Assembly (NCBI GenBank): GCA_028687545.1
Contig: JAQTZZ010000010.1
Coordinates: forward strand, 1 to 50,117
Direction: 5' to 3'
Origin: Candidatus Wallbacteria bacterium
GTDB lineage: Bacteria > Muiribacteriota > JAQTZZ01
Length of the DNA stretch: 50,117 bases
Shown in pieces: positions 2,146 to 41,886 of this stretch (positions within the stretch are counted from its first letter, which is position 1; every line of letters begins with the position of its first letter). A program made the position numbers and the translations under genes. Below the pieces are notes generated by a model. That model saw only the letters and a list, made by a program, of their open reading frames with translations. It ran no database searches and was not told the DNA's origin.

Positions 2146-3393
2146 ATGAGAAGGACTTTTTTCCTTTTTCTGTTGTTTTTTTTCGTTAATTCCGCCTGGG
2201 CAGCTTCCTCAATGTCCCTTATCACCACCAAGACTCAGGTCTCCCTCAACGAAGTTTTCTACATTGACATCAACCTCTCCAGTGTCGAAGCATTTCAGAA
2301 GCTTGCCTTTACCCTGGAATTCGACAAAACTCATTTCGAGGGCCAGGACAATTGCCCGGATATTCCCAACTCAGGCAGCGACGGTCAGATGGCACTGGGG
2401 ACAGTCTTCGGCAATGAGTATAACCTGGTTGCCAATACGATCAAGAATACTGACGGAAAAATCACCTTCTCCATCGAAGACAGCGGAGTCGGCAAGATCA
2501 GCATGGGTGTGCAGATCGCCAGAGCCAAATTCAAGTGCATTTCCTCGGATGTGGGTCATTTTACTTTCACATTGAGCGGAATCACAGTAAATACAGGGAC
2601 AACCATCGCGAATGTCACTAAAGACATCTGGATCGGCAGCCAGTCGATCACCAGCATAGGCTTGGCAGGCGGCACAGCTACAGGACCAGGCGGTCTCACT
2701 CTCACTTTCCCTGTCGGAGCTGTTCTCTCCAACACGTCAATCTCGATCGTGAAAGTAACTCCGGCGTCCATCCCGAATGCGCCTGCCTTCCCGAGCGACT
2801 CTAATTACGCCAGCACTGCCATGGCCTGGCAGATGACCCCGGAGATGTATTTCAAGAGACCTGTGACTCTAACCATCAACTACTCCACCAATGAACTGGG
2901 TACGGCAGACGAAAAGTATCTGAAACTCTACTGGCTTAATCCTGCCCTCAATTCCTGGGTGCGGATCGGTGGAGAATCGAATTCAACCACCAAAATCGTC
3001 AAATGGGAGATCATGCACTTCTCCTATTTTCTTCTGGTATCGGACAAGTTCAAGGCCGAACACATCAGGATTACTGATGACAAGGCAATTCCAAACCCGT
3101 TTTCACCAAACGGCAATTCCAAAAGCGACTGGAGCACGATTTCATTTCATATCTCCAAGGACGCCAAGGAATCCACAGTCAAAATATATGACATCAACGG
3201 CAGGTTGATCAGGCTGTTTTTCGAAAAAAAAGCCCTGCTGAAAGGTGAAATCCATGTCGAATGGGACGGGAAAAACGATTATACCGAGATCGTACCAACA
3301 GGAATCTATATTTATTACATTGGAGTCAGGGACTATGATGACAGACTGGACGAAAAAAAGAGAACCATAGTGGTTTCCAAAAAAATGGAATGA
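2146..3393 (+). CDS. Secreted protein with cohesin-like N-terminal domain and FlgD/T9SS-like C-terminal Ig domain
   Basis: 415 aa. A signal peptide (hydrophobic FFLFLLFFF, cleavage near AWA-A) leads into a beta-rich region (about residues 25-150) resembling cohesin-type folds (LEFDKTHFEG). A middle ZU5-like stretch follows (GLTLTFPVGAV, then a Met/Trp-containing part). The final 100 residues (AIPNPFSPNGN, VKIYDINGRLIR, WDGKN, GIYIYYI) match the FlgD-type Ig or T9SS type-A-like sorting domain common in secreted proteins of diderm phyla. No catalytic motif is seen. The next gene begins 1 nt after the stop, so this is the first gene of a three-gene operon encoding envelope proteins. No good Shine-Dalgarno precedes the ATG; it is chosen because it starts the signal peptide. 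I infer a surface or secreted structural protein. Confidence 0.8.
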   Translation: MRRTFFLFLLFFFVNSAWAASSMSLITTKTQVSLNEVFYIDINLSSVEAFQKLAFTLEFDKTHFEGQDNCPDIPNSGSDGQMALGTVFGNEYNLVANTIKNTDGKITFSIEDSGVGKISMGVQIARAKFKCISSDVGHFTFTLSGITVNTGTTIANVTKDIWIGSQSITSIGLAGGTATGPGGLTLTFPVGAVLSNTSISIVKVTPASIPNAPAFPSDSNYASTAMAWQMTPEMYFKRPVTLTINYSTNELGTADEKYLKLYWLNPALNSWVRIGGESNSTTKIVKWEIMHFSYFLLVSDKFKAEHIRITDDKAIPNPFSPNGNSKSDWSTISFHISKDAKESTVKIYDINGRLIRLFFEKKALLKGEIHVEWDGKNDYTEIVPTGIYIYYIGVRDYDDRLDEKKRTIVVSKKME

Positions 3394-3394
3394 A

Positions 3395-4204
3395 ATGAAA
3401 TTACTGCTGCTTTTTTTGATATTGTTCGGATCCGCAGCCATGGCCGAATATGAGGACAAGGACATTTCAGCCAGGGTCGAAGCAATGGGCGGCGCTTACA
3501 TCGCGCTGGCAGACGATCCGGCTGCAATGCACTATAACCCGGCAGGCGTGGCCTTGAATTTCAGGCGGGAAATGCTGACTTCTTATTCCAAACTTTACAA
3601 CATCAGCGAACTGATCGACCGGTATATCGGAATCACCACGCCAGTATTGCCTTTCTGCAACATGGGATTCGCCAACGAGGAATTCGGTACAGGCAAATAC
3701 AAGGAGCATAAGTATACTGTCTCAGTAGCCAGGGAAGTACTTAAGGGACATCGGATCGGCTTCAGTTTCAATCAGTTCATGACTGCAATTGAGAATACAG
3801 AGCACCATAAAGATACAGGCATCGATTTCGGCCTGATTTCAGACCTGACCAGCAAAGCCAAAATCGCCTTTTCAGGCAGGAACGCCAATCATCCAAATGT
3901 CGATGAGCAGCTCAGGGCATATTACAGGCTGGGGTTTCTGTTTTTACCCAACGAGAAAATAAAGCTGCTGGCTGATTTCGAGAAGCCGCAGACTGTGCTG
4001 CGTGAAGATAAAACTGCTGTTCACGTTGGAGAGGAGATGGAACTCGGGGATGGTGTTTTTTTCAGGGTCGGATACAGGACTCAACCTCAGAGACTCTCAT
4101 TCGGAATGGGGTTTGAGCACAGAGACATCAACATCGATTATTCTTTCACATCTCATGTTGATTTGTCCTTAACTCACAGGGTATCGCTGGGGATCAAGTT
4201 CTGA
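3395..4204 (+). CDS. PorV/UPF0164-like outer-membrane beta-barrel protein
   Basis: 269 aa with a short signal peptide (LLLLFLILFGSAAMAE). The mature start ARVEAMGGAYIALADD, followed shortly by AAMHYNPAGVAL, is the hallmark of the UPF0164/PorV/FadL-like barrels found in diderm phyla. The remainder alternates polar and hydrophobic residues and ends SLGIKF with a terminal aromatic, typical of a barrel recognised by the BAM complex. It is the second gene of the operon, 1 nt after the upstream stop and overlapping the next ATG by one base (TGATG). In Bacteroidota PorV partners with secreted proteins bearing C-terminal sorting domains; the FlgD-like protein upstream makes a similar pairing plausible here, but that is inference. 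Confidence 0.8.
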   Translation: MKLLLLFLILFGSAAMAEYEDKDISARVEAMGGAYIALADDPAAMHYNPAGVALNFRREMLTSYSKLYNISELIDRYIGITTPVLPFCNMGFANEEFGTGKYKEHKYTVSVAREVLKGHRIGFSFNQFMTAIENTEHHKDTGIDFGLISDLTSKAKIAFSGRNANHPNVDEQLRAYYRLGFLFLPNEKIKLLADFEKPQTVLREDKTAVHVGEEMELGDGVFFRVGYRTQPQRLSFGMGFEHRDINIDYSFTSHVDLSLTHRVSLGIKF

Positions 4205-6096
4205 TGAGAATAGCGCTGACGCTTTTTATTCTGCTTTCCTTCCAGGTTCTGGAAGCCAGGATCGACGACCGCATCGATCTGAATCTGGCACAGCAGGAAC
4301 AATTGATGACTCTATATGGGATCTCCGAGCAGGATGCGGATAACATCATGAAATACAGGCTGGATAAGGGGGAATTCAAGCGGATCGAGGAAGTGATCCC
4401 GATCATCGGGGATGATAAATTCGAACTGATTAAATATGATCTTAAAGTCACACCGCTGGAAACCAGATTCAGGGACGCGCTTTCCGGATATGTATTCATG
4501 GAGCAGTATAATCTGGTGGATGGACTGGCTTCAGCCCAGGACTTCGGCAAGATGAAGGTCAATGTCTACGATGCTGTTGAAGTAAACCTGAGTAAAAAGA
4601 AAACATTCAAGAACAACAACGAACTCTTCAACAAAGATAAGTGGGAATACTTCAGGAGCGTAACTCTCAACCACTATAAAAGGGTGGACATTACCAAGGC
4701 GCATGAAATCAAGAACGAGCCTGATCTGGAACTTTTCAAGACCGTGGATCTGAAAAAGGAGCGCGAGGAGAAAGCCGGTGACGCGATCACCTTCCTGGAC
4801 GATTATTTCAATGGAAAACCCAAGATTCAGAAGAAGAAACAGGAAGTAGTCGGTGGCCAGTATCTGCTGTCAGATTATGATGAGAACAAGTATTTCACTA
4901 CCGAAGATTCCAAAAGAGCATTGTACGAAACGAACAAGGCAAATATCCGTTATGTACGTCGGGATCAGGACGGCCCCACTCTTCCGCCTAAGGAGCTGCC
5001 TGCTGAACAGGAAGAAAAAATGAAAGACATTGACGGACCGCATTTCAGGAAAGAACTGAAAGACAAGCTGCTGATCGGAAATTTCTATCTCCCGCCTGTG
5101 CGATCTCCTCTGGTCGCCAAAAGCAGCAGCGAACACATCAGCGGACTGCGCCTCTATCACTTTGAAAACAACTGGGACAATTCCCTGTTTCTGGCCGACA
5201 TGCCTCTAAGAGATGGAAGCGTCTTTGGCGGGGAATTCAATTTCAATGTAGGCAAAGACTCCAAGTTTTCCATGGTCGGGTATAATATGCACGAACACAG
5301 GTTTGGCAATAATTTTCCCTGCCTTTCATTGAACGGCAGCAAACAGCTGACCAATGACACTTCAGCATTCATAGAGTTCGACAGTGTGGCCAACAAAGCC
5401 TATTCTACATATGGCAAAATCTTCACCACCATGGGGAACTACTCGCTGACCTGTTCCTTGAACTCGGTCACGCCAACGTACCGCATTATAAGCCTCCTGC
5501 AGCCGTATTTCGAAGCAGGTGGCGGCAACTATACGTTCCAGGGCCTGCTGGAAGGATATTTCAAAATGAGCTACAAGTTCCTGGAAAGTTCAACTTTCTC
5601 ATTAGATTTCACGAACACCAAGAAAAAGGGTAATTATTTCACGGAAAACGTAAGGGATCTGCATGACTACAGTATTTATCTGGATTACGAGCCTGCAGCC
5701 AAATGGAGTTTCAATGTGACGAATTCCTACAAGGATAATAATTATGACGAGACAAAGTATAAAAACAACATGGCGTTTTCCACGCAATATCAGGCCGACG
5801 AAACAACTACCTGGAAGCTCAATTTCAAGAACACTGCTTTCAAGGACTCCAATGCTGCTTATCACAAGCTGGAGTGCGTGAAAAAATACCATAAGTTAAG
5901 CATCGGCCCTGCTTTCAATGTTTACCGCAATGATCCGGATGATGGATCAGGCGATGAAGCAGTCTGCGAACTGAATTATGAATTCAATAAAAACACTTAT
6001 CTGGCGACTAATTATGATGTCGGTTACTCAAAAAACAAAGCCGGCCATTTTGATGATGAGCGCACCTGGCATGTTTCGTTTAATTCGAAATTTTAG
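4204..6096 (+). CDS. Helix-hairpin-helix (ComEA-like) domain fused to predicted outer-membrane beta-barrel
   Basis: 630 aa with a signal peptide (residues 1-18). Residues about 20-85 form a ComEA-like helix-hairpin-helix unit: RIDLNLAQQEQLMTLYGIS, then ADNIMKYRLDKGEFK and a second hairpin. In ComEA such a unit binds DNA in the periplasm or on the cell surface. A charged Lys/Glu-rich linker follows (to about residue 300). The C-terminal half is a series of alternating beta-strands (GLRLYHFENNWDNS, FNFNVGKDSKFSM) ending SFNSKF with a terminal Phe, as in outer-membrane barrels. It is translationally coupled to the PorV-like gene (TGATG) and followed 6 nt later by dtd. Similar HhH-plus-barrel proteins exist in other diderm genomes as uncharacterised proteins, as far as I recall. 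DNA binding or uptake is possible but unproven. Confidence 0.75.
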   Translation: MRIALTLFILLSFQVLEARIDDRIDLNLAQQEQLMTLYGISEQDADNIMKYRLDKGEFKRIEEVIPIIGDDKFELIKYDLKVTPLETRFRDALSGYVFMEQYNLVDGLASAQDFGKMKVNVYDAVEVNLSKKKTFKNNNELFNKDKWEYFRSVTLNHYKRVDITKAHEIKNEPDLELFKTVDLKKEREEKAGDAITFLDDYFNGKPKIQKKKQEVVGGQYLLSDYDENKYFTTEDSKRALYETNKANIRYVRRDQDGPTLPPKELPAEQEEKMKDIDGPHFRKELKDKLLIGNFYLPPVRSPLVAKSSSEHISGLRLYHFENNWDNSLFLADMPLRDGSVFGGEFNFNVGKDSKFSMVGYNMHEHRFGNNFPCLSLNGSKQLTNDTSAFIEFDSVANKAYSTYGKIFTTMGNYSLTCSLNSVTPTYRIISLLQPYFEAGGGNYTFQGLLEGYFKMSYKFLESSTFSLDFTNTKKKGNYFTENVRDLHDYSIYLDYEPAAKWSFNVTNSYKDNNYDETKYKNNMAFSTQYQADETTTWKLNFKNTAFKDSNAAYHKLECVKKYHKLSIGPAFNVYRNDPDDGSGDEAVCELNYEFNKNTYLATNYDVGYSKNKAGHFDDERTWHVSFNSKF

Positions 6097-12690: not shown

Positions 12691-13872
12691 ATGCCTAAAA
12701 TTTCCATGCTTTTTCTGCTTTGCGCCTTCTTGACCGCCACTTTTGCCAGAGACATTGATGTTTATTTCCATTTCAAGGCACCACAAGCCAAGACAATTTG
12801 CATAGCCATGGAATGCATGGACTGGGAACAGGACGCCAACCCTATGCAAAAAGGACCTGACGGAGTTTTCACGCTGAAAATGGAAATCAATCCTGGCGAA
12901 TATCCCTACATGTATGTAGTGGATGGTAAATACTGGGTCCAGGACCCTGAAGCACAGTCAATCAGGATTGAAAATACCCCGGCCTCGCTTCTGATCGTCG
13001 GCACAGAAGCTGAACGTGCCGCTGAGCGCGCTGTCCAGGCCGGGAACGCGGACCAGGCTCTCCAGGCTGCCCAGGATCTTAGGGGTTATGATGAGCTTTC
13101 CCAATTCCAGGCTCCGGCCAATTTCTGCTTCGGTATACTGGGAGACTGCCGCGACGGGGAAGGTATTTACAAGGCGCTGCTTTCCAAAATCAAGGAATTC
13201 AAGGGTGTGATGGTAGCCAATAATGGAGACATGGTGAGTGGCCCGACAGTCTACAATGAATGGCTCACCTTCATCCAGGACACCAAGAATGCCGACATTC
13301 CCTTTGTGGCAGCGCTAGGCAATCACGACACCAAGAAAGCCGCAGACACAGTGTGGGATTCCAAGCTGTTCAAGATTCCTCAGAAGGATTTTTATTATTC
13401 CCTGAACTTTGGTAACTGCGCTTTTTTCTTTCTCAACACAGAATACACGAAAGGCTCTTTCCCGATCAGTGGAGCCCAGATGGACTGGCTGAAATCCGAA
13501 CTTTCCAGCAGTACAGCCAAGAATAAATTCGTATTCGTGCACAGACCGCTGTATCCATTGAAAAGCCAGGGCCAGCATTACAACGACTCGCTCAACATCT
13601 ATCCTGCTGACCGCGACGCACTGCTCCAGTTGTTCAAGGACAATGGAGTCAAATACATCTTCTGCGGACACGAGCATTTCTACAACAGGCAGACTGTCGA
13701 AGGCGTGGAGAACGTGATTGTCGGCGGAGCAGGCGCTCCGTTGTATACCTCTGCCGCTAAAGGCGGATATTATCACTTCGTGCTGGTGACTGTGAAAAAC
13801 GGCACAGTGAAGTGTGAAGTCTATAAATATGACTCTACCGCCGGAACTTACCAGATCTCGGATACATTTTAA
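12691..13872 (+). CDS. Secreted CBM48/glycogen-binding-like domain fused to calcineurin-like metallophosphatase
   Basis: 393 aa. AGGAGGG lies 6 nt before the ATG and a signal peptide follows (MLFLLCAFLTATFA). Residues 20-100 form a CBM48/AMPK-beta-like Ig module (DVYFHFKAPQAKTICIAMEC, PGEYPYMYVVDGKYWVQDPE). Residues about 140-380 are a metallophosphoesterase with the complete metal-binding motif set: GDCRDG, NNGDMV, GNHDT, VHRPLY and GHEHFY. It should act outside the cytoplasmic membrane on a phosphate ester, possibly while bound to a glycan. The binding domain resembles those in the operon at 14074-22194, suggesting a related role. No partner gene overlaps it. Confidence 0.88.
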   Translation: MPKISMLFLLCAFLTATFARDIDVYFHFKAPQAKTICIAMECMDWEQDANPMQKGPDGVFTLKMEINPGEYPYMYVVDGKYWVQDPEAQSIRIENTPASLLIVGTEAERAAERAVQAGNADQALQAAQDLRGYDELSQFQAPANFCFGILGDCRDGEGIYKALLSKIKEFKGVMVANNGDMVSGPTVYNEWLTFIQDTKNADIPFVAALGNHDTKKAADTVWDSKLFKIPQKDFYYSLNFGNCAFFFLNTEYTKGSFPISGAQMDWLKSELSSSTAKNKFVFVHRPLYPLKSQGQHYNDSLNIYPADRDALLQLFKDNGVKYIFCGHEHFYNRQTVEGVENVIVGGAGAPLYTSAAKGGYYHFVLVTVKNGTVKCEVYKYDSTAGTYQISDTF

Positions 13873-13953: not shown

Positions 13954-14075
13954 AAGGCTGTTCAAAAGCGGTTGAATGCAAGAAGCGCGAAGCCTGAGGA
14001 ACGGAGTGTACTTAGAGGTACATGAAGTGACGAAGGCTGAGTGCGACGCAGCAGACGCCGCTTTTCAACAGCCTT
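13954..14075. repeat. Dispersed ~120-bp imperfect palindromic repeat, copy B
   Basis: AAGGCTGTTCAAAAGCGG and CCGCTTTTCAACAGCCTT are inverted arms. The interior ATGCAAGAAGCGCGAAGCC, GAGGAACGGAG, GTACTTAGAGGTAC and CTGAGTGCGACGCAGCAGA aligns with the copy at 1831-1952. It lies between convergent genes, and its last 2 bases overlap the stop codon of the minus-strand gene, so it may act as a bidirectional terminator. Confidence 0.8.
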
Positions 14076-15045
14076 AGAATAATACTTCGAAGCCCATGAA
14101 GTGCTGGCTCACATCAGTATCATAATCACCCATGAATGCATATTCAAGGTTGAAATTCTCCGTGATTCTCATTCCCATGCCGAGGTTCAGGTTTCCGTTC
14201 TTGCTGCCAAACCGCAAAGTCAGATCCCTGTCCAGAAAAGTTTTTTCAACTCCGATCCTGAATTCCGTATTGTCCTGGCTGACATTGTCCAGAGATTTGG
14301 CATCGATCAGGTTGTACCCGTCAGCTGCGACAATGGTGGTGGGATCGACGTGGAAGGCGAATCCGAGGCTTGCGATCGTCGGTACATCGAATGAACTGTC
14401 GCGGAACAGGTTGTCCAGAGTCATGCCGATGGAGAGAAAATCGCTGTAGCAGTAAATGCCGCCAGCGCTGAGAGCGCCTTCATTGAAGGTACTGACCTGA
14501 TTGTTTTGCATGTAATTATCGTAAGTTGACCAGCGGACCTTGATCCCGCCGGCAAGTTTGGAATTCTTGCGCCAGAAAACAGAGTCAAAAGCCTTGGCTG
14601 CAGCGAACACCAGGTTGGTATTTTTATAGGCATCCACTCCGTTTTCAGAAATAATGCCGAAACCATAGTTGTAATTGACCCTGCGATCACTCTTGGGTGG
14701 CTGCAGCCTGTTTTCCAGATAGTCGCCGATCGTGAAAGTGACATCCTCGTCATCTTCATAACTCTGTCCAGTGAACGCCATTGAGTCATAACTCAGTTCA
14801 TTGCGCAGATTGGCCTTCAGCATCACTTCACCATAACGGCGGCCGCTGGGTATCTTGGCGAGGCCGGCAGGATTCCAGAACACCCCTGAAGCATCGTCGG
14901 AGACTGCAATGAAAGCCTCCCCCATGCCGATGGCGCGGCAGGAAGCCTCACCCAGGCCAGTGTACCGTACCTGCTGGTAGACCAGCGCCTGCGCGTTGGA
15001 GATCGTAAATAATATGAGCAACACCAACAGTCCGGATTTATTCAT
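14074..15045 (-). CDS. PorV/UPF0164-like outer-membrane barrel, last gene of the envelope operon
   Basis: 323 aa. GAGGAGG lies just before the ATG and a signal peptide follows (LLVLLILFTISNAQAL). The diagnostic start SCRAIGMGEAFIAVSDD, then GVFWNPAGLAKI, marks the PorV/UPF0164/FadL-like barrels. Alternating strands run to the terminal FMGFEVLF with a C-terminal Phe. It overlaps the upstream lipoprotein gene (ATGA). It is a paralogue in kind, though not closely in sequence, of the barrel at 3395-4204. Within the operon it may be the membrane pore or shuttle for the secreted FlgD-like protein encoded first; this is inferred from T9SS PorV. Confidence 0.85.
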   Translation of the reverse strand: MNKSGLLVLLILFTISNAQALVYQQVRYTGLGEASCRAIGMGEAFIAVSDDASGVFWNPAGLAKIPSGRRYGEVMLKANLRNELSYDSMAFTGQSYEDDEDVTFTIGDYLENRLQPPKSDRRVNYNYGFGIISENGVDAYKNTNLVFAAAKAFDSVFWRKNSKLAGGIKVRWSTYDNYMQNNQVSTFNEGALSAGGIYCYSDFLSIGMTLDNLFRDSSFDVPTIASLGFAFHVDPTTIVAADGYNLIDAKSLDNVSQDNTEFRIGVEKTFLDRDLTLRFGSKNGNLNLGMGMRITENFNLEYAFMGDYDTDVSQHFMGFEVLF

Positions 15046-16238
15046 TTTTCCTCCTCATAGATGCCATGCGATTCGCCCCCTGGGTTGTAGCATTTAACTT
15101 TCAGCTTCTTAGTATCCTCGCCGAAAACATCATAGCGGCCGCCGGCAGGACACTTCGGAATGTCCTTGATGTACCCTCCCAGCAGCAGATCGTAGACTGT
15201 CACATTCGGGTCATCAGGGTTTTCCGCCCAGTATTTCTTCGCACTATCCAGCAGCTCTCGCATATTATTTCGGCAGATTTCTGAAAGTTGCTTAGTCCGG
15301 ATTGGGGGTATGACCACAGTTTCTTTCTGCGCAGATGGGATTTTCTGCTCGACCGCTGTTGGCAGCAGGACTTCACTCTGCGCAGTCTGGTGATACATCA
15401 TCGGGATCACTGCCAGCTTGTCGTCACTCTTGAAACCATTCGAGGTGAAGACGCGCAATTCTTTCTCCTGCTGTCCTTCCGAATTCTCTAATAAATCAAT
15501 CACGTTCGTATCGCCGGAGAAATTGGAACCTCCGCCAAAATTATTGGTACCCCTGACAGCTTTGACTTCCATGTTCATGAAGGCATTGGGATCAGTGTTG
15601 TTTTTATCGAACCCCATTACCAGCACCTGATAGCCCCAGTTCGGGAGTGGTTCGCCAAGGTCTTTTTTCAGCACCTTGGCTACGATCACAGATTCAGACA
15701 CAAAATAGAAATCAGGCACGATCAGCTCTTTTTTAATAAGCATGTCTTTAAGTTCCAGATGCTCGGTTTTTTCCTCGATATAGCTCTTCATTTCCCAGCC
15801 TTCCAATGGGGAAACCAGGATCACCTTTTCCCAGGCGGAATCAGGTTTGAAAGTCACGTTTCTGCCTGGTAGAGCCTCTTTATAACCCAGTCTTTCAAGG
15901 CGATTGGTGTCTATGTAGATGTCGATCAGCTGATGATTCCAGCCTGAAGCCTCTGTCGGCAGACCCTGCTTATTGAGCCTGCCGCGGAATTCCATCCTGA
16001 AATAGATCTCCATCCCGGCATCTATCACTTGAAATCTTATCAGATCAAAGGTACCGCGTTCGTATAGATTTTCATCTCTGGGATAGGTGTACGTGCCTGG
16101 TCCATGATCATCAAATGTCTTATCCTGCCATTCAAAGCAGGTCTTTTTCTCAGATCTGCCGACCAGCGGCGGCATTTTAGGCTGCTGACAGCCTGCAATC
16201 AGCATTGTTGCACACAACAGCAGCAGCAGCTTTCTCAT
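15042..16238 (-). CDS. Lipoprotein with glucodextranase C-terminal-like module and pseudopilin-like tail
   Basis: 398 aa. The ATG at 16238 follows AGGAGG by 8 nt; a TTG three bases earlier is also possible. The lipobox is LIAGC. Residues about 38-240 match the C-terminal binding module of glucodextranase (PF09985-like): KTFDDHGPGTYTYPRDE, then ERGTFDLIRFQV, and WNHQLIDIYIDT. A Pro/Ser-rich linker follows. The last 90 residues (RNNMRELLDSAKKYW, then KCPAGGRYDVFG) resemble the globular part of type II/IV pseudopilins without the membrane helix. No hydrolase catalytic domain is present, so it is a binding or anchoring lipoprotein. It overlaps both neighbours, by 1 nt (TGATG) upstream and 4 nt (ATGA) downstream. 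Confidence 0.75.
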   Translation of the reverse strand: MRKLLLLLCATMLIAGCQQPKMPPLVGRSEKKTCFEWQDKTFDDHGPGTYTYPRDENLYERGTFDLIRFQVIDAGMEIYFRMEFRGRLNKQGLPTEASGWNHQLIDIYIDTNRLERLGYKEALPGRNVTFKPDSAWEKVILVSPLEGWEMKSYIEEKTEHLELKDMLIKKELIVPDFYFVSESVIVAKVLKKDLGEPLPNWGYQVLVMGFDKNNTDPNAFMNMEVKAVRGTNNFGGGSNFSGDTNVIDLLENSEGQQEKELRVFTSNGFKSDDKLAVIPMMYHQTAQSEVLLPTAVEQKIPSAQKETVVIPPIRTKQLSEICRNNMRELLDSAKKYWAENPDDPNVTVYDLLLGGYIKDIPKCPAGGRYDVFGEDTKKLKVKCYNPGGESHGIYEEEK

Positions 16239-16648
16239 CAATATATCCTCCTGAAAACAACTTCCCCGGTCTCAGTTGTAGCCCAGGCGTTGAAAGATCC
16301 GGAAACGACCATTGCCGGAATAACGGGATTGTCAGTCCAGTCAGTGGATTGAACTGTAATCTCTACTGTCAGACCGCCAATCGGTACTTCCTTGTATGAA
16401 TTGTCGCTCTGGATCTTTTCGCAGGTCGGGTCCAGTCTCCAATCGTAACGTTTGGTATCACCGACAGCGAAATTCGGTTTGATGATGATCAGCTTGTACT
16501 GTCCGTCCAGAATACTGTTTGTATAAGGAAAAAATACCTTGGCATACCACATGGTTTCAGTTGGGGTAAGAGCATTATGATGAATGCATCCGCTGAACAG
16601 GAATGTCATAGTGAACATCAGTGCGATTAAAATTGTTCTTTTCATCAT
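16238..16648 (-). CDS. Small lipoprotein with CBM48-like C-terminal motif
   Basis: 136 aa. Signal peptide and lipobox LFSGC near residue 21 predict a lipoprotein. The body is beta-rich and near the end reads VVSGSFNAWAT, the start-strand signature of CBM48/AMPK-type glycogen-binding Ig modules (compare GSFNQWNP in the neighbour at 19141). The module would be truncated at about 20 residues after that motif, so either only part of the fold is present or the resemblance is local. It lies 6 nt after the SLH-barrel gene and is coupled (TGATG) to the next lipoprotein gene. Function unknown. Confidence 0.65.
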   Translation of the reverse strand: MMKRTILIALMFTMTFLFSGCIHHNALTPTETMWYAKVFFPYTNSILDGQYKLIIIKPNFAVGDTKRYDWRLDPTCEKIQSDNSYKEVPIGGLTVEITVQSTDWTDNPVIPAMVVSGSFNAWATTETGEVVFRRIY

Positions 16649-16654
16649 TCCGCC

Positions 16655-19144
16655 TTAGAACTGCGTGGTTGCAGTGAACAGCCAGATCTTCCGTTCCGCT
16701 TTGAGCGGTTCTTCCTTGTCGAACTTGTTGCCAGGAGAATATTCCAGCTTCAATTCAGTCGCACTGTTCGGTGTGTAGGAAAAGTTCAGATTGAAGTGAT
16801 GGGTGCAGGTCTCATCATCCACCTGATTCCACCAGTAGCCGACCTTACCTTTGAGATTTTCAGTGAAATTATTTTTAAGCACCAGCTTGTAAAATTTGGT
16901 TGTGCTCATATTCCCGTTTTTCGGCCAGGTCCGCTTGATATAGTTCTTGGACGAAGCCGACATTATGGATGAGAGATCAACATTGGACTGGATTTCGAAC
17001 TTGCTGTCGTCAGCTTCCTCGTTCACTCCAGTCTTGTTGATGAAATTGATGCTGTCCTGATTGTAATTCCAGAAATACTGCATCCAGATTTTATCGGTCT
17101 GATTGTAGCCGTACTGGGTCCAGACTCCATCCTTTCTCCGCCCTTTGTAAGCTGCGTCCAGATCGTCCGAGTCACTGAGCGCCCAGACCCCCAAGTCCCA
17201 TTTAGTGTTCCGGTCAGGGTTGAGAATGCTGTTTAGTTTCACTTCTGTTTTGGTCTTTCCCTGCTCGTCACCCGGATCGAAATGCTGGAAAGCCAGGAAT
17301 TCTCCGGACAGGTTGGCTGTATATTTAGGGAAAGCCTGGAATTTGTAAAGATGTCCCTCCTCTGTCAAGCCCTGGCCGAACTCCAGCTGGTCGTATGTGA
17401 ATTCCGTAGCCACCTTCTGGGAATTTCCCAGATCGAAGTCGTAGGACCCCTTGACCCGGCTGTGCCGCTCTGCATAGCTGGTCGGCAGAATCACCCAGTC
17501 GTTGATGAAAATATCAGGGCTTTTTTCCCAGTCCACACGTCCGTTGTACCAGTAATCACTGTCGTCGTCTGTCGCTTCCCCGTAATGATAGCGCCACTTG
17601 ATCCATTCATTGGTCTCAATCCAGAATCTGGGACCATAATCATAGAATTCATAATCAAGGCCGGCCGGACCGTTTTTGTAGCTCAGCGAAGTCCAGAAAC
17701 CTGTATCCTGATCGATTTCCAGGGTATCAGGCTCCAGGTAAGAAATCGGGTACAGTTTGTTGTTGGCAGGATTCATCCAGAATGGGCTGATCTGATTGGG
17801 ATACCGGCCGTGCTGATTCCAGAGATATTCCCCGGTCCAGGTTCCCTTGCGCTTCTGGTCATCGTAAGAATAAGTGAAATCCGTGCCTTCCAGCCTCGAA
17901 TAATGGCCATAGGCATATTTCCCGTATTGGGAGGTTTGAGGCTGGTTGATCTCTTTCATGTATTCCAGGTAAGTCCAGCCCCAGATCAGCGAACTGTCAG
18001 GAATCATACCGTTGGGGAAGGTGTAGTTGAGCCTGGTGGTAATTATGTCGCGGTCAGAATCAAGCTGTTTGATCAGTGAACTGAATGAGGAGACATCCTT
18101 GGTCAGCTTCCCGTTGATTTCAAGCCCAGAGTAAGGCTTGGAATAGGCAGCCAGATCCGAGACCCAGCCCCAGTTCCAGTTGAAAATGCTCAAGGGGTCA
18201 GTAAGGGCGGTAAAACCTTCTCTGCCTGAATAAAATCTCAGGTTGCATCTCGCTGAGTCCACCTTGAAGTGGAATTTATCGAGGTGGAACAGATTCTTGT
18301 TGCCCTCAGCAATTTTAACTTCACTGGCATAGCGGTCGGTGTAGACGATTTCACCCGTACTCTGCTTGATTTCGCCTGTGCTGCCCACTACATTGAAGGC
18401 AGTCTGATCCATGTCAGGATTGGACCAGGCTATGATCGAGACTGTGTCACCGGGCTGATATCCTTTGATAAAGGCTGCAGGAGTATTTCCATTCATCACC
18501 TTGCGGGTGAGTTCGTCATAGACGATGGTTGCCTTGTCGCCGGACTCTGGCTTGTTGATCGAGCCTTCCAGCCTGGTATAGACCTCTGTGCTGTCTGCAG
18601 GCTTCCCTGTCAGAAACAGGCTGACATTATGCTGGGATTTATGGAATCCGCGGTTTTTATCTCCAGTGTCTGCAATATCCGAGCTGTAGTCAGCGTTATC
18701 CTTGCGGAAATATGCAATATTGCCGGAATATTCTCCTGAAATGCTGAATCTCTTGTCTTCCTTTTTCAGGTCATCCTGGCCCTTTTCCAAAGCATTCAGC
18801 CGTTCCTCCACCTTCTCCACCCTGACTCCGATCGCGGTGATCTCATCGCGGAACTCTGTGATCAGCTTGCGGATGGTGCCGGCGTCTTCCTGCGTGATGG
18901 TGCCCCCAGAACTCTCCACGTCTGTCACTTTGTTCAGGAGCTTATAGACCATTACAGCCATTTCATATCTGGTGATGGGTGTAGTCCCCTGGAACTTCCC
19001 GTCCGGAAATCCGTCCACATAGCCCTTTTTAGCCAGATTGTCGATTGCTTCATAGGCCCAGTGATTCTGAGGCACATCTTCGAACAACCCCGCGCAGAGA
19101 GGGAGAGCCAGACAACAGATCATGAAAACTATGGTAAATTTCAC
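16655..19144 (-). CDS. SLH-domain outer-membrane porin-like protein (OmpM/Slp type)
   Basis: 829 aa from a GTG (19144) that overlaps the upstream stop. A signal peptide ends near LCAG. Residues 20-70 are one SLH domain (FEDVPQNHWAYEAIDNLAKK, YVDGFPDGKFQG, PITRYEMAVMVYKLL), which binds peptidoglycan-linked polymer. Residues 85-130 form a coiled coil (EITAIGVRVEKVEERLNAL). The remaining ~700 residues are strand-rich with many Trp/Tyr and end FTATTQF. This layout is that of OmpM-like porins of Negativicutes, cyanobacteria and Thermus, which tie the outer membrane to the cell wall. It is the largest gene of the seven-gene operon and probably its structural core. Confidence 0.85.
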   Translation of the reverse strand: MKFTIVFMICCLALPLCAGLFEDVPQNHWAYEAIDNLAKKGYVDGFPDGKFQGTTPITRYEMAVMVYKLLNKVTDVESSGGTITQEDAGTIRKLITEFRDEITAIGVRVEKVEERLNALEKGQDDLKKEDKRFSISGEYSGNIAYFRKDNADYSSDIADTGDKNRGFHKSQHNVSLFLTGKPADSTEVYTRLEGSINKPESGDKATIVYDELTRKVMNGNTPAAFIKGYQPGDTVSIIAWSNPDMDQTAFNVVGSTGEIKQSTGEIVYTDRYASEVKIAEGNKNLFHLDKFHFKVDSARCNLRFYSGREGFTALTDPLSIFNWNWGWVSDLAAYSKPYSGLEINGKLTKDVSSFSSLIKQLDSDRDIITTRLNYTFPNGMIPDSSLIWGWTYLEYMKEINQPQTSQYGKYAYGHYSRLEGTDFTYSYDDQKRKGTWTGEYLWNQHGRYPNQISPFWMNPANNKLYPISYLEPDTLEIDQDTGFWTSLSYKNGPAGLDYEFYDYGPRFWIETNEWIKWRYHYGEATDDDSDYWYNGRVDWEKSPDIFINDWVILPTSYAERHSRVKGSYDFDLGNSQKVATEFTYDQLEFGQGLTEEGHLYKFQAFPKYTANLSGEFLAFQHFDPGDEQGKTKTEVKLNSILNPDRNTKWDLGVWALSDSDDLDAAYKGRRKDGVWTQYGYNQTDKIWMQYFWNYNQDSINFINKTGVNEEADDSKFEIQSNVDLSSIMSASSKNYIKRTWPKNGNMSTTKFYKLVLKNNFTENLKGKVGYWWNQVDDETCTHHFNLNFSYTPNSATELKLEYSPGNKFDKEEPLKAERKIWLFTATTQF

Positions 19145-19863
19145 TGTCCGCCTTCGCCCTTGATGACGACTACGGAATTTTTCCCGCCGAAACCGTCATC
19201 CTTAGTGACGGCAGCATTGGCGTCAATCCGCCATTCCTTGCCGTCGATCACATAAAAATAGATATACTCACCTGGTGGAAGATAAAGAGTAGTCTCCCAG
19301 TCCCCGTTTCCGCTGTCTGATTTGAGATAGTTCCTGGTCGGGTTCCATTGGTTAAAACTTCCCACTACAGCCACACTTTTCGCAGAATTGCTTTTATAGG
19401 TGAATCGGGCATTGCCGGCCCGGCCTGGTTCGGCAGAATCAACTTCCCCGGTGCCGACTTCCCCAGTACCGGCTTCTGGAGTTCCCCCGGAAATTCCTGC
19501 TTTCTTTTCCGGTCTTTTGACAGTTACAATGCTGTTCTGCCCCCCGAATCCGTCATCAGCAAATTTTTTCGCGAACGGATCCTTGATCCATTTATTCCCG
19601 TCCAGCACGAATTTGTAAGCATATTCCCCTTCGTCCAGGCTAAGCTTGATCAGGAAGCAATTCTGCTTTTCGTCAAATTTCATCAGATCCTTGTCTTTAC
19701 TCCACTCATTGAAATCACCGGCAATCGAGACTGTTTTTACTCCAGGGTCCCGATAGCGGAAGATCACGCCATCTTCCACGTTTTCAGGTCCGTCTTCGGC
19801 AGAAAGCAATGCCTGGGCCAGCAGAAAAAAAAGGCAGATATCCCATTTTTTAATCAAGTACAT
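19141..19863 (-). CDS. Secreted protein with two CBM48-like glycogen-binding modules
   Basis: 240 aa. Signal-like N-terminus (CLFFLLAQALLSAE). Two tandem AMPK-beta/CBM48 Ig modules are clear. The first is about residues 30-110 (VSIAGDFNEWSKDKDLMKF, EGEYAYKFVLDGNKWIKDP, GFGGQNSIVTV). The second is about 150-238 (VAVVGSFNQWNPTRNYL, PGEYIYFYVIDGKEWRID, GFGGKNSVVVI). A Gly/Thr/Glu linker with a duplicated GTGEV joins them. No enzyme domain is attached, so the protein probably binds alpha-glucan or a similar polymer, or acts as a protein-protein module in the envelope. It overlaps the TPR gene by 14 nt and the SLH-barrel gene by 4 nt (GTGA). Confidence 0.85.
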   Translation of the reverse strand: MYLIKKWDICLFFLLAQALLSAEDGPENVEDGVIFRYRDPGVKTVSIAGDFNEWSKDKDLMKFDEKQNCFLIKLSLDEGEYAYKFVLDGNKWIKDPFAKKFADDGFGGQNSIVTVKRPEKKAGISGGTPEAGTGEVGTGEVDSAEPGRAGNARFTYKSNSAKSVAVVGSFNQWNPTRNYLKSDSGNGDWETTLYLPPGEYIYFYVIDGKEWRIDANAAVTKDDGFGGKNSVVVIKGEGGQ

Positions 19864-20503
19864 AGGTTTTGCCGTCGCTGCCGACGACTCCTTCCAGTTT
19901 CGAGAGAAAATTGCTCGTCACCTGCTTAACATCCGCCTGCGGGAGTGGTTCGTTGATCTGCTGGGAATATTTCAACTGCGCATATGCTTCGGAATAACGA
20001 TTGGCATAATAGTAGAGCAGGCCGAGCAGAGCATGAACATTCATGTCAGAGAGGTCCTTGTTGTATTCGGGCACATATTTCCTGTTAATGTTCTGAACCC
20101 CCAGTGATTCCAGAAGCTCAATCCCTTTATGGAAAGAGCTTTTATCGCAGAGATCCAGATAGTATCCTGCCAGACCGACCCTGGCATCCTTGTTCAATTC
20201 CTGGGCTTTCTCAAAGTAAGGGAGGCCGTCCACAAGCCCGTTTTCCTTAGCCAAGGCGAAACCCATCCCGGCATAAGCATCCGCAAGCTGCTTGGGGGAC
20301 GGATTCATATGGATGGCGCTGTCGAATTCCGATTTGGCGCTCTTGTAACTTCCCTTGTTGAAAACCAGCCAGCCATTGCTTAATACATCTCCGACAGGAT
20401 CCGCATATGTGGCAAGCCCGGTTTCTCCAATAGTGGAGCCGCCGCACCCCAGATGCAGGGTCAGCAGAGTAGCGAGAAATGCACCAAGCAGTATTTTCCT
20501 CAT
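19850..20503 (-). CDS. TPR-repeat lipoprotein
   Basis: 217 aa. A signal peptide and lipobox-like LHLGC predict a lipoprotein. TPR-like helical pairs cover most of it: LVFNKGSYKSAKSEFDSAI, AYAGMGFALAKENGL, PYFEKAQELNKDARVGLAGY and ALLGLLYYYANRYSEAYAQL. TPR lipoproteins often scaffold envelope complexes, as in BamD or T9SS PorW. It overlaps the upstream gene by 4 nt (ATGA) and the CBM48 gene by 14 nt. I infer an assembly or scaffold role for this operon's products. Confidence 0.82.
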   Translation of the reverse strand: MRKILLGAFLATLLTLHLGCGGSTIGETGLATYADPVGDVLSNGWLVFNKGSYKSAKSEFDSAIHMNPSPKQLADAYAGMGFALAKENGLVDGLPYFEKAQELNKDARVGLAGYYLDLCDKSSFHKGIELLESLGVQNINRKYVPEYNKDLSDMNVHALLGLLYYYANRYSEAYAQLKYSQQINEPLPQADVKQVTSNFLSKLEGVVGSDGKTYVLD

Positions 20504-22194
20504 TTCCCCTCCCCGTCAAGCACGCTGATTTTTCCGGCTTGCTCTGTACGATAGTTTCCCCCAAAATCAGACTGCAATTTGTAAAAATAAACTCCGGATG
20601 CAATTTTTCTGCCCCTCTTTTCCAGCCTGATGCTGCAGCTGCCGGTCTGCAGAGGAGTGATTTCCTGAGAGAGCACCCTGATCCCGGCAGAGTCGAACAG
20701 CCTGAAGAACAATCTGCTCGGAACTTGATTGTAAGAATAATCCAGATTCACTTCGCCTAGTGCCGGTTGAGGATAGAGTCGGAAATAATTCAAGCCGGCT
20801 ACAGCCGGGGCTTTAAGCGATAAATACCTCTTTGCATTATTCCCGAGGAGGTCAGACACGTCGACCGTGAGGCTGTAATTTCGCCCGGATGCATACTCAA
20901 GGTCGAATTCCACGCGGTTCTCCTCGACCCTGGGTTCAAGTCTGGTCACAACGCTACCGTTGCAATCGATCCGGACACTGGTCCAATCCACGCCGCTCAG
21001 ATCGTCGGAAAGCTTCACACTGGCTCGATACTTGTCGTTGCGCCAGGCACCTTCCTGCAGTTCTGCCACAGGCGAATTGCTGTCTGTGATGAAAGCCAGC
21101 GGTCCCAGAAATCGCGTTTCCGCCACATAAGCCCCGTTCCTGTAATCCGCTTTCCCGACGAAATCAAGCGTGTTCCCGCGATATGTGAAAAGCCCGACAC
21201 AACCGGGTTGCTGATCGCACTTGAGGGTAATTGTCGCCTTTTTTCCAAGATCCATCTGAGGATAGACTGCAATCAGCCGGTCTCCTACGAATGAACTGCC
21301 GGGAGGGATTTCGAAATCAGGTTTCTGGTTAAAAGCCATGAAAAAGTGACTCTGGGACACTGCGTCACCCGGGAAACTGATCTCGCAGGTATCATCAGGT
21401 GTGGTCAGAACTCCGCCTCCTGATCCGATTTCACTCACCATCAACCTGCCAAAGGCTTTTATGATCTGATCATTCTTGGTTTGCGGCCAATGCCCTGTGT
21501 TTCCGTGCAGATCTATCCCGGAAACCTGTACTGCGTTCGGGCCGAGCACTTCACGGACAATGTGAAGGGAACCGATGTAGGTAAGTGCTGTCAGGCTTCT
21601 CATGTCTACAGTCTGCCCGCCTACAGTGACTTGAGGTGGACCTACGAGTGCCTCAGAAGCGCCTACTGAAACGATGTAATCAAAATTACTGATCGGATTG
21701 GGAAAAATCTTGGGAGTGCTGAAAGTGGGCGCGATATCCAGATAATAAATCGCACTTTTGGCTTCCTTGAGCGTGTTTCCAGCCAGGTCCTGCGCGCCTT
21801 GTGCCACCACCCAGATTTTCCCCTGATCCGAATAATTGTCGATCACAACGTCTGAATCAATGCCTCCAACCCAGAATCTGTTGGAGACCCATTCGCCGAT
21901 TTCAACAGTCTGTTTGCGCCCGCTGTTGAACATTATTTTCACCTGTCCCTTGGTCAGGTCGATTCCCGTTTTCATGTCTTCGCTGAATTCGATTGCCACT
22001 CCCAGCTGTCCTTCCTTGAAAATGTCGGGATAAATCATGCCGTGATTACTCCCGGGAGTGGTGTCTGTAATAGAGATACTGACTACTTTGGGAGGATCCA
22101 GATCAAGATTGGCCTGCAGTACTACAGCCGCTGCGCAGGGATACGCGGCCCACATGAACAGAATAAAGATTATGAAAAACAGGCTTTTTAACAT
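20500..22194 (-). CDS. Secreted Ig-like protein with T9SS/FlgD-like C-terminal domain, first gene of the envelope operon
   Basis: 564 aa. AAGGGG lies 6 nt before the ATG and a signal peptide follows (LFFIIFILFMWAAYPCAAAV). Residues about 30-150 form a Big_5-like Ig domain (GQLGVAIEFSEDM, WVVAQGAQDLAGN). Residues about 245-370 form a beta domain. A segment (RASVKLSDDLSGVDWTSVRI) resembling Ig modules of surface proteins follows. The last 80 residues (YFRLYPQPALGEVNLDYSYN, RLFFRLFDSAGIRVLSQEI, GRKIASGVYFYKLQS) are a T9SS type-A-like or FlgD-like sorting/Ig domain. No catalytic motif is seen. It overlaps the TPR gene (ATGA) and heads seven genes transcribed together. I infer a surface structural or adhesive protein carried across by the downstream barrels. 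Confidence 0.82.
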   Translation of the reverse strand: MLKSLFFIIFILFMWAAYPCAAAVVLQANLDLDPPKVVSISITDTTPGSNHGMIYPDIFKEGQLGVAIEFSEDMKTGIDLTKGQVKIMFNSGRKQTVEIGEWVSNRFWVGGIDSDVVIDNYSDQGKIWVVAQGAQDLAGNTLKEAKSAIYYLDIAPTFSTPKIFPNPISNFDYIVSVGASEALVGPPQVTVGGQTVDMRSLTALTYIGSLHIVREVLGPNAVQVSGIDLHGNTGHWPQTKNDQIIKAFGRLMVSEIGSGGGVLTTPDDTCEISFPGDAVSQSHFFMAFNQKPDFEIPPGSSFVGDRLIAVYPQMDLGKKATITLKCDQQPGCVGLFTYRGNTLDFVGKADYRNGAYVAETRFLGPLAFITDSNSPVAELQEGAWRNDKYRASVKLSDDLSGVDWTSVRIDCNGSVVTRLEPRVEENRVEFDLEYASGRNYSLTVDVSDLLGNNAKRYLSLKAPAVAGLNYFRLYPQPALGEVNLDYSYNQVPSRLFFRLFDSAGIRVLSQEITPLQTGSCSIRLEKRGRKIASGVYFYKLQSDFGGNYRTEQAGKISVLDGEGK

Positions 22195-28236: not shown

Positions 28237-28594
28237 TGGTGGAGGCGGCGGGAGTTGAACCCGCGTCCAACGATATCAAGCTACGACCTTCTACATGCTT
28301 GTCTGGGATTTTTCTCTCCTCTTACCTCGGGCTTTCTGCTCCCAGCAGAGTCCGCCTCCGGCGCATCCGGTTTTTCTCGGCATTCATACCCGGATCTCTG
28401 ATGCCGCAGTCTGATTTGTTACACCCTGTCCAAAGCTACAGACGGAAGCCCTGGGAGGATGTCGCGGATATTAGGCCGCGAGTGCGTAGTTGTCGTTTGT
28501 TGCTGTTAGCTTTAAGTGGACTCATTTACGGTGCTGTCCATCACCGGCATGCTTATCGTAACCAAATGATCGCTGTCGAAACCGGTACGCCCCC
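28237..28594 (-). ncRNA. ssrA: Transfer-messenger RNA (tmRNA)
   Basis: One-piece tmRNA of about 358 nt that rescues stalled ribosomes with SmpB. The 3' end on the minus strand reads GGACGCGGGTTCAACTCCCG, then CCGCCTCCACCA: a T-arm, acceptor strand, discriminator A and encoded CCA. The 5' end GGGGGCG (28594-28588) pairs fully with CGCCTCC, and GTACCGGTTTCGACAGCGAT is the conserved 5' region. The tag frame runs from the resume codon GCA (28503) to TAA (28471) and encodes ATNDNYALAA, ending in the ALAA degron recognised by ClpXP. Pseudoknots fill the middle. Any protein reading frame across this stretch is incidental. Confidence 0.97.
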
Positions 28595-36930: not shown

Positions 36931-36944
36931 AAAAAGGAAATGTT

Positions 36945-37060
36945 CCTGGCAACTACCTACTCTCCCACACAGTTGCCCATGCAGTACCATCGGCTCAAGC
37001 GGGCTTAACTTCTGTGTTCGGAACGGGAACAGGTGTGACCCCGCCGACTTGCCACCAAGA
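36945..37060 (-). rRNA. rrf: 5S ribosomal RNA
   Basis: About 116 nt. The minus strand reads GGTGGCAAGTCGGCGGGGTC, then ACACCTGTTCCCGTTCCGAA and CACAGAAGTTAAGCCCGCTT, ending GGAGAGTAGGTAGTTGCCAG: the standard 5S sequence. TGTTCTTGG at one end pairs with CCAGGAACA at the other, forming helix I. Third gene of the 16S-23S-5S operon. Confidence 0.96.
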
Positions 37061-37116
37061 ACATTTCCTTCTTATCAATGGTTGGTCTTTGAAAACTCTT
37101 TCATTCAAGGTACAAT

Positions 37117-41886
<4,770 letters not shown>

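Follow-up and report, generated by a model that had tools for sequence, protein, structure and literature searches.

We analysed a 50,117-nucleotide (nt) stretch of contig JAQTZZ010000010.1 (forward strand; hereafter the window, in whose positions all coordinates are given), from an uncultured bacterial phylum whose members are deposited under Candidatus Wallbacteria, Riflebacteria, Ozemobacter and Muiribacteriota. The subject of this work is a run of seven envelope genes on its minus strand, between positions 22194 and 14074, which we number gene 1 to gene 7 in the order of transcription (Table 1). When the ends of the open reading frames (ORFs) are read from the sequence, neighbouring genes overlap or nearly touch, the junctions from gene 1 to gene 7 being a 4-nt ATGA, a 14-nt overlap, a 4-nt GTGA, a 6-nt gap, TGATG and ATGA. 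An earlier note on this DNA, the original prediction, had described the seven genes as fully coupled, and every junction that it named was recovered exactly. Its assignment of domains was borne out for the TPR domain, the two CBM48 domains, SLH and Glucodextran_C, but gene 5 gave no match in the domain search, the match of gene 1 is weak and that of gene 7 to PorV is below the cut-off. As it had also stated, the domain search found no hydrolase among the seven genes; neither did it find a TonB-dependent receptor plug, a SusD-like domain or a superoxide dismutase domain in the seven proteins.

Table 1. The seven minus-strand envelope genes, in order of transcription, with positions in the window and lengths in amino acids (aa).
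Gene	Positions	Strand	Length (aa)	Predicted product
Gene 1	20500..22194	-	564	Secreted immunoglobulin (Ig)-like protein with a C-terminal domain of FlgD/type IX secretion system type; family-specific addition
Gene 2	19850..20503	-	217	TPR protein, probable lipoprotein
Gene 3	19141..19863	-	240	Secreted protein with tandem AMPK-type CBM48 domains
Gene 4	16655..19144	-	829	OmpM/SlpA-type tether: signal peptide, SLH domain (~21-63), helical stalk (to ~129), predicted C-terminal barrel of ~28-30 strands
Gene 5	16238..16648	-	136	Small lipoprotein, FSGC lipobox; the slot holds a CBM48-like lipoprotein in other families
Gene 6	15042..16241 (or ATG at 16238)	-	399	Glucodextran_C lipoprotein, IAGC lipobox, C-terminal pilin-like domain (~315-399)
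Gene 7	14074..15045	-	323	PorV/FadL-like outer-membrane barrel

Matches in sequence and in predicted fold identify gene 4 as a putative OmpM/SlpA-type outer-membrane tether, with the SLH domain, the stalk and the barrel all recognisable. A single SLH domain follows the signal peptide (Pfam SLH, residues 21-63, 3.2e-10). Among solved structures, the best match of a 23-member gene 4 profile was Veillonella OmpM (8bys, E 1.7e-35; also 8bym and 8bz2), and the same profile found Deinococcus SlpA (7zgx, E 1.6e-28); both matches span the SLH domain and the stalk. Residues F21, D23, H28, G41, G45, D48, F51, G53, R59 and Y60 of the SLH domain are invariant in all 26 alignment rows with letters there, and the pyruvate-binding TRY motif is nearly invariant; in known SLH domains the arginine of this motif contacts ketal-pyruvate (PMC10628300). 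The AlphaFold2 model of gene 4 has stalk helices at residues 59-78, 85-104 and 109-129 (low to moderate confidence), followed by 28 long and 2 short antiparallel strands over residues 133-828. The SlpA barrel has 30 strands in D. radiodurans and 28 in some relatives (PMC9388160), and the ~28-30 predicted strands therefore put gene 4 in the SlpA size class. Foldseek searches with the model retrieved large outer-membrane barrels, with the SlpA entries 8agd, 7zgx and 8ae1 within the top 50. Moreover, the last residue is a phenylalanine that is invariant in the family, in line with the aromatic ending of outer-membrane barrels. The large barrel that had been foreseen for gene 4 is thus predicted here too, at modest confidence, and the sequence match to OmpM/SlpA is in keeping with the earlier placing of SLH on the wall and of the barrels in the outer membrane. 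In a phylum-wide search most genomes with an intact locus carried one full-length copy of gene 4; other SLH barrels in these genomes match over the SLH domain and stalk only, mostly on shorter ORFs. An OmpM/SlpA-type protein is present in every genome searched.

The order of the genes around gene 4 is conserved. Of the 37 genomes in the relatives set, which includes that of the window, 33 have relatives of gene 6, and the neighbourhoods of these were searched with all window proteins in 31 genomes besides the window's own, from eight GTDB families (f1-f8). A core of four genes is kept across these families: the SLH barrel, a variable CBM48-like lipoprotein, the Glucodextran_C lipoprotein and the PorV-like barrel. 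In 26/26 informative genomes the Glucodextran_C gene is preceded, on its own strand, by the SLH barrel (24 by BLAST and 2, G032 and G029, by profile, their SLH barrel being truncated at the contig start); the remaining 5/31 loci end <760 nt upstream of the Glucodextran_C gene and are hence uninformative for the SLH barrel. Downstream, a PorV-like gene is found in 28 of the 30 genomes with room for one (27 and a fragment in G020), the exceptions being G033 and G029. This order is retained across the eight families, well past what chance would give, though most of the proteins are merely 23-50% identical, and the core keeps its order and tight spacing while the surrounding genes differ from family to family. 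A conserved neighbourhood in candidate-phylum relatives had been set beforehand as the point on which the prediction could fail, and a fixed order is what was found. Furthermore, the pairwise distances of genes 4, 6 and 7 correlate (r 0.92-0.96), which is consistent with joint inheritance.

The seven genes as a whole have a much narrower distribution. In G001, from a second genus of the window's family, one contig carries uvrC and then genes 1, 2 and 3 and another the end of gene 4 followed by genes 5, 6 and 7, with the break between contigs inside gene 4. All seven genes and uvrC are therefore ordered alike in G001, and the seven-gene order is a trait of the family; identity of the G001 orthologues to the window is 42% for gene 1, 50% for gene 2 (which lies between genes 1 and 3) and 43% for gene 5. 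In G002 gene 3 directly precedes gene 4, and the best relative of gene 1 is on another contig. Genes 1 and 2 are at the locus in the window's family only and gene 3 in f1 and f2 only; outside f1/f2 only genes 4, 6 and 7 and the middle lipoprotein are kept. With genes 1 and 2 restricted to one family and gene 3 reaching only G002 besides, the claim that all seven genes form one conserved machine was rejected as unsupported: genes 1-3 are local additions, and the unit outside the window's family is one of four genes.

The surroundings of the core vary. In the window the same-strand run extends upstream into uvrC, separated from gene 1 by 82 nt, and beyond it, across a further 6 nt, into a clostripain-family gene; therefore the start of the operon is not fixed, and a promoter and terminator scan of the locus performed no better than chance. 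In family f5 (L053 11773-17854 and relatives) the locus is extended by genes for two secreted proteins whose family is unknown, and after these by lgt, hprK, a CofD/YvcK gene and whiA. A scan of 84,980 species genomes with one conserved peptide returned 20 loci in or resembling this phylum and three Glucodextran_C matches in Peribacillus and Anaerolineaceae; a single-pattern scan is narrow, and it therefore does not demonstrate absence of the locus elsewhere. The contigs L067, L068 and L076 fall in this phylum by search yet are deposited as Cloacimonadota or Methylomirabilis, and these public names look wrong.

A lipoprotein gene lies between genes 4 and 6 in f1, f3, f4, f5 and f6 and none in f2, whilst in f7 this slot holds a related protein cut by the contig end. 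These middle lipoproteins are related by hhalign (f5 to f3, 98%; f5 to f4 and f6, ~92%). No Pfam match over the cut-off was obtained for c3, c17, c30, the G006 protein or gene 5, and hhalign supports a relation to the CBM48 fold for c3 and the G006 protein only. The gene 5 profile aligns partially with the domains of gene 3 (65% probability over 42 columns by hhalign), and its alignment with the middle lipoproteins of f5 and f6 is limited to the first 28-30 residues, mainly signal peptide. Gene 6 carries a beta-rich domain that matches Glucodextran_C at 5e-39. Its profile found glucodextranase alone in the PDB (1.2e-13), and its model matches the same chain (Foldseek, 2e-12). Residues 315-399 (window 15042-15300) form a helix-plus-sheet domain that is pilin-like without the pilin N-terminus; Foldseek matched gene 6 to the type IV pilin PilJ over 76 columns (probability 0.98, E 0.15), and we infer that this match covers the domain. 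Fusion of the pilin-like domain to gene 6 is seen in f1, f2, f4 and f6, and in f3 (L033-L036) the domain forms a protein of its own, which has a predicted membrane segment and is encoded right after the PorV-like gene (hhalign 94%).

Close relatives of gene 7 are found at the locus in every family where the locus is intact, and most genomes have diverged paralogues elsewhere. The match of gene 7 to PorV_fam is confined to residues 34-68 (~35 N-terminal residues) and scores 37 bits against a cut-off of 90; all 21 members of the gene 7 alignment match PorV_fam, weakly, and 1/21 matches the BamG model. The C-terminus of gene 1 resembles Por_Secre_tail/FlgD, also weakly (24.3 bits against an NCBIfam cut-off of 23), and comparable C-terminal regions are found throughout the phylum on ORFs that are much longer. 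A profile search for the SprA/Sov translocon found 0/40 genomes of the phylum over the cut-off. ORFs of mostly 850-1,100 aa in 35/40 of these genomes (e.g. L091) match ~100 residues of SprA, around profile positions 573-715, and possibly share a small domain carried by an unrelated outer-membrane protein. Elsewhere in the window, a tight plus-strand trio (2146-6096) encodes a protein whose C-terminal domain is of CHU_C/FlgD type, a short PorV-like barrel (3395-4204) and a helix-hairpin-helix protein of 630 aa, again pairing PorV-like and C-terminal-domain genes without SprA.

Of the genes confined to few families, gene 2 is a TPR protein with an HLGC at residue 20 that a strict lipobox pattern missed. 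Gene 3 carries two AMPK1_CBM/CBM48 domains, and its nearest solved chains are the glycogen-binding modules of AMPK-beta and a pullulanase. Domain 1 aligns with AMPK-beta at the ligand residues W, K, W and N, all four of which are kept, and from this sequence evidence gene 3 likely binds alpha-glucan. The middle lipoproteins differ: among 15 from f5/f7, 13 keep the first W alone and 2 none of the four residues, the f4 protein keeps the second W only, and c3, c30 and the G006 protein have lost most of the ligand positions. Alpha-glucan binding by the core is therefore not supported, nor is the idea of a primarily glycan-binding system: the ligand residues are present in gene 3, outside the core, but other families have lost them from their core lipoproteins. 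Downstream of gene 7, with its end 201 nt away, lies a convergent gene (12691-13872, plus strand) whose secreted product joins a CBM48-like domain, paralogous to gene 3, to a calcineurin-type phosphoesterase (metallophosphoesterase).

Envelope profiles were surveyed in 40 genomes of the phylum. BamA-type Omp85 is present in 39/40, that of the window included, and the genomes are therefore those of diderms. PS_pyruv_trans was found in 37/40, and the window's genome (4.54 Mb, 97% complete) has a CsaB homologue (E 6e-59) that scores slightly below the equivalog cut-off. OmpA-domain proteins occur in 39/40; the window's genome has two, MotB and a solute-binding-protein fusion, neither of which is a candidate for Pal, and thus no Pal-type lipoprotein with an OmpA domain was found in it. 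The LolA profile matched 0/40 genomes with a positive Deinobacterium control, which is weak evidence of absence. The LptD profile also matched 0/40, with controls positive in E. coli and Caulobacter only; it misses the diderms Thermus, Deinobacterium and Synechococcus, and therefore we draw nothing from this result. That neither LolA nor LptD was matched despite near-universal BamA bears on the routes of lipoproteins and lipopolysaccharide to the outer membrane.

Taken together, we lean towards reading the core, genes 4-7, as an outer-membrane/cell-wall connector, in which a SlpA-type tether would work with lipoproteins and a FadL-family barrel encoded alongside it, and we regard this as somewhat probable. 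Gene 4 would trimerise and place its large barrel in the outer membrane, with a coiled-coil stalk reaching down to SLH domains that may hold on to a pyruvylated polymer of the cell wall, in whose synthesis CsaB would assist. In D. radiodurans the beta-sandwich lipoprotein DR_0644 surrounds the SlpA stalk as a trimeric collar, and because of this precedent we propose that the lipoproteins of genes 5 and 6 could form a collar of beta-sandwich domains at the base of barrel and stalk. Similarly, BamG is a FadL-family barrel that anchors a surface lipoprotein and works with BamH; on this ground the gene 7 barrel may pair with the gene 6 lipoprotein and hold it at the membrane. Both precedents are analogies and do not imply membership of either system. 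Genes 1-3 would be family additions, encoding in turn an Ig protein of the surface, a TPR lipoprotein that acts as an adaptor and a protein that binds alpha-glucan. Only tentatively, and with more doubt than belief, do we extend this to a phylum-wide multi-component tether, in which the SlpA-size SLH barrel, two collar lipoproteins (one CBM48-like, one combining Glucodextran_C and pilin-like domains) and the PorV/FadL-like barrel would be the main machine coupling outer membrane, wall polymer and surface lipoproteins in diderms without recognisable Pal or LolA.

Several observations weigh against the connector. Conserved gene order is no proof of a complex, and the correlated distances of genes 4, 6 and 7 are expected from vertical descent alone. 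The sequence match of gene 4 to SlpA/OmpM ends where the barrel begins, and its model is modest (predicted local distance difference test 67, predicted template modelling score 0.55). The middle lipoprotein is strongly diverged, gene 5 is not convincingly of CBM48 fold, and G002 has no gene at all between genes 4 and 6. Moreover, with several smaller SLH barrels elsewhere in these genomes, the role of main tether may not fall to gene 4. The locus could also be a housekeeping run of envelope genes that share expression and form no complex, as the continuation of the same-strand run into uvrC and the clostripain gene, and of the f5 locus into lgt, hprK, yvcK/cofD and whiA, would suggest. Yet the four-gene core is constant in order and spacing as its surroundings change between families, and the pilin-like domain, fused to gene 6 in four families or separate beside the PorV-like gene in f3, is a fusion-type link; we consider such a run quite improbable.

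Glycan capture or uptake is an unlikely though not a negligible alternative, in which the CBM48 and Glucodextran_C proteins would hold alpha-glucans or maltodextrins and the SLH barrel would be the channel, as a Sus analogue without TonB. It draws on the closeness of gene 3 to AMPK-beta modules and a pullulanase and its complete W, K, W, N set in domain 1, on the kinship of gene 6 to a non-catalytic C-terminal module of glucodextranase, and on Veillonella OmpM doubling as a nutrient channel. However, gene 3 is at the locus in two families only, all 15 of the conserved-slot lipoproteins in f5/f7 keep at most the first W, and a hydrolase, TonB plug and SusD-like domain are missing from the seven genes. 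Sus-type uptake proper was rejected for want of the latter two, and a glycan-binding complex is a less likely reading than a tether. It is very improbable that genes 7 and 1 belong to a type IX-like route of secretion and surface anchoring: the N-terminal PorV_fam matches of gene 7 and its 21 alignment members, and a Por_Secre_tail score just over the cut-off in gene 1, are set against a gene 7 score far under threshold, a phylum in which mostly ~100-residue fragments of SprA are matched, and a gene 1 not found at the locus outside the window's family. Type IX secretion itself was rejected, with no SprA over the cut-off and PorV sub-threshold.

Away from the locus, the window contains a complete 16S-23S-5S rRNA operon (36944-41886, minus strand), with no tRNA gene in its spacer or anywhere in the window, and a tmRNA at 28237-28594.

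In summary, the operon is real and conserved, and it is apparently undescribed: we found no published description of it in the literature searched, whose coverage leaves subscription journals largely outside, and no published mention of this uncultured phylum in the context of outer-membrane tethering. How the outer membrane is attached to the wall outside Proteobacteria bears on how diderm and monoderm cells arose, and in the literature OmpM of diderm Terrabacteria is set against Pal of Gracilicutes. The conserved operon suggests a multi-part version of this ancient membrane-anchoring device in Wallbacteria, Riflebacteria and relatives. If the companions of gene 4 are true partners, they would be the first accessory set known to us that is recognisable by gene order alone, and the model of stalk, collar and partner barrel would be directly testable with recombinant proteins.

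Several known systems can be compared with parts of the locus. Glucodextranase of Arthrobacter globiformis (1ug9) has a C-terminal module that gene 6 resembles in sequence and fold, whereas gene 6 is a free-standing lipoprotein without a catalytic domain and with an added pilin-like C-terminal domain. Gene 7 is like PorV/PorQ and BamG in its PorV-type N-terminal motif, its barrel size and the position of its gene beside a lipoprotein gene (compare BamG-BamH), but differs in its sub-threshold PorV score, the lack of SprA and the near absence of BamG model matches in its alignment. OmpM of Veillonella parvula, an outer-membrane tether and porin of Negativicutes, shares with gene 4 the N-terminal SLH domain, helical stalk and C-terminal barrel. 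The gene 4 barrel alone has ~690 residues, however, as against 428-435 for the entire OmpM chain in PDB entries; the TRY motif and CsaB point to a pyruvylated polymer here and not to the polyaminated peptidoglycan of OmpM, and lipoproteins and a PorV-like barrel are co-encoded. Lastly, SlpA (DR_2577) of Deinococcus radiodurans shares the SLH domain, coiled coil and 28-30-stranded barrel and has a known beta-sandwich lipoprotein partner; this partner, DR_0644, is a Cu-only superoxide dismutase, whereas the candidate partners of gene 4 are Glucodextran_C and CBM48-like lipoproteins encoded in the same operon, together with a PorV-like barrel.

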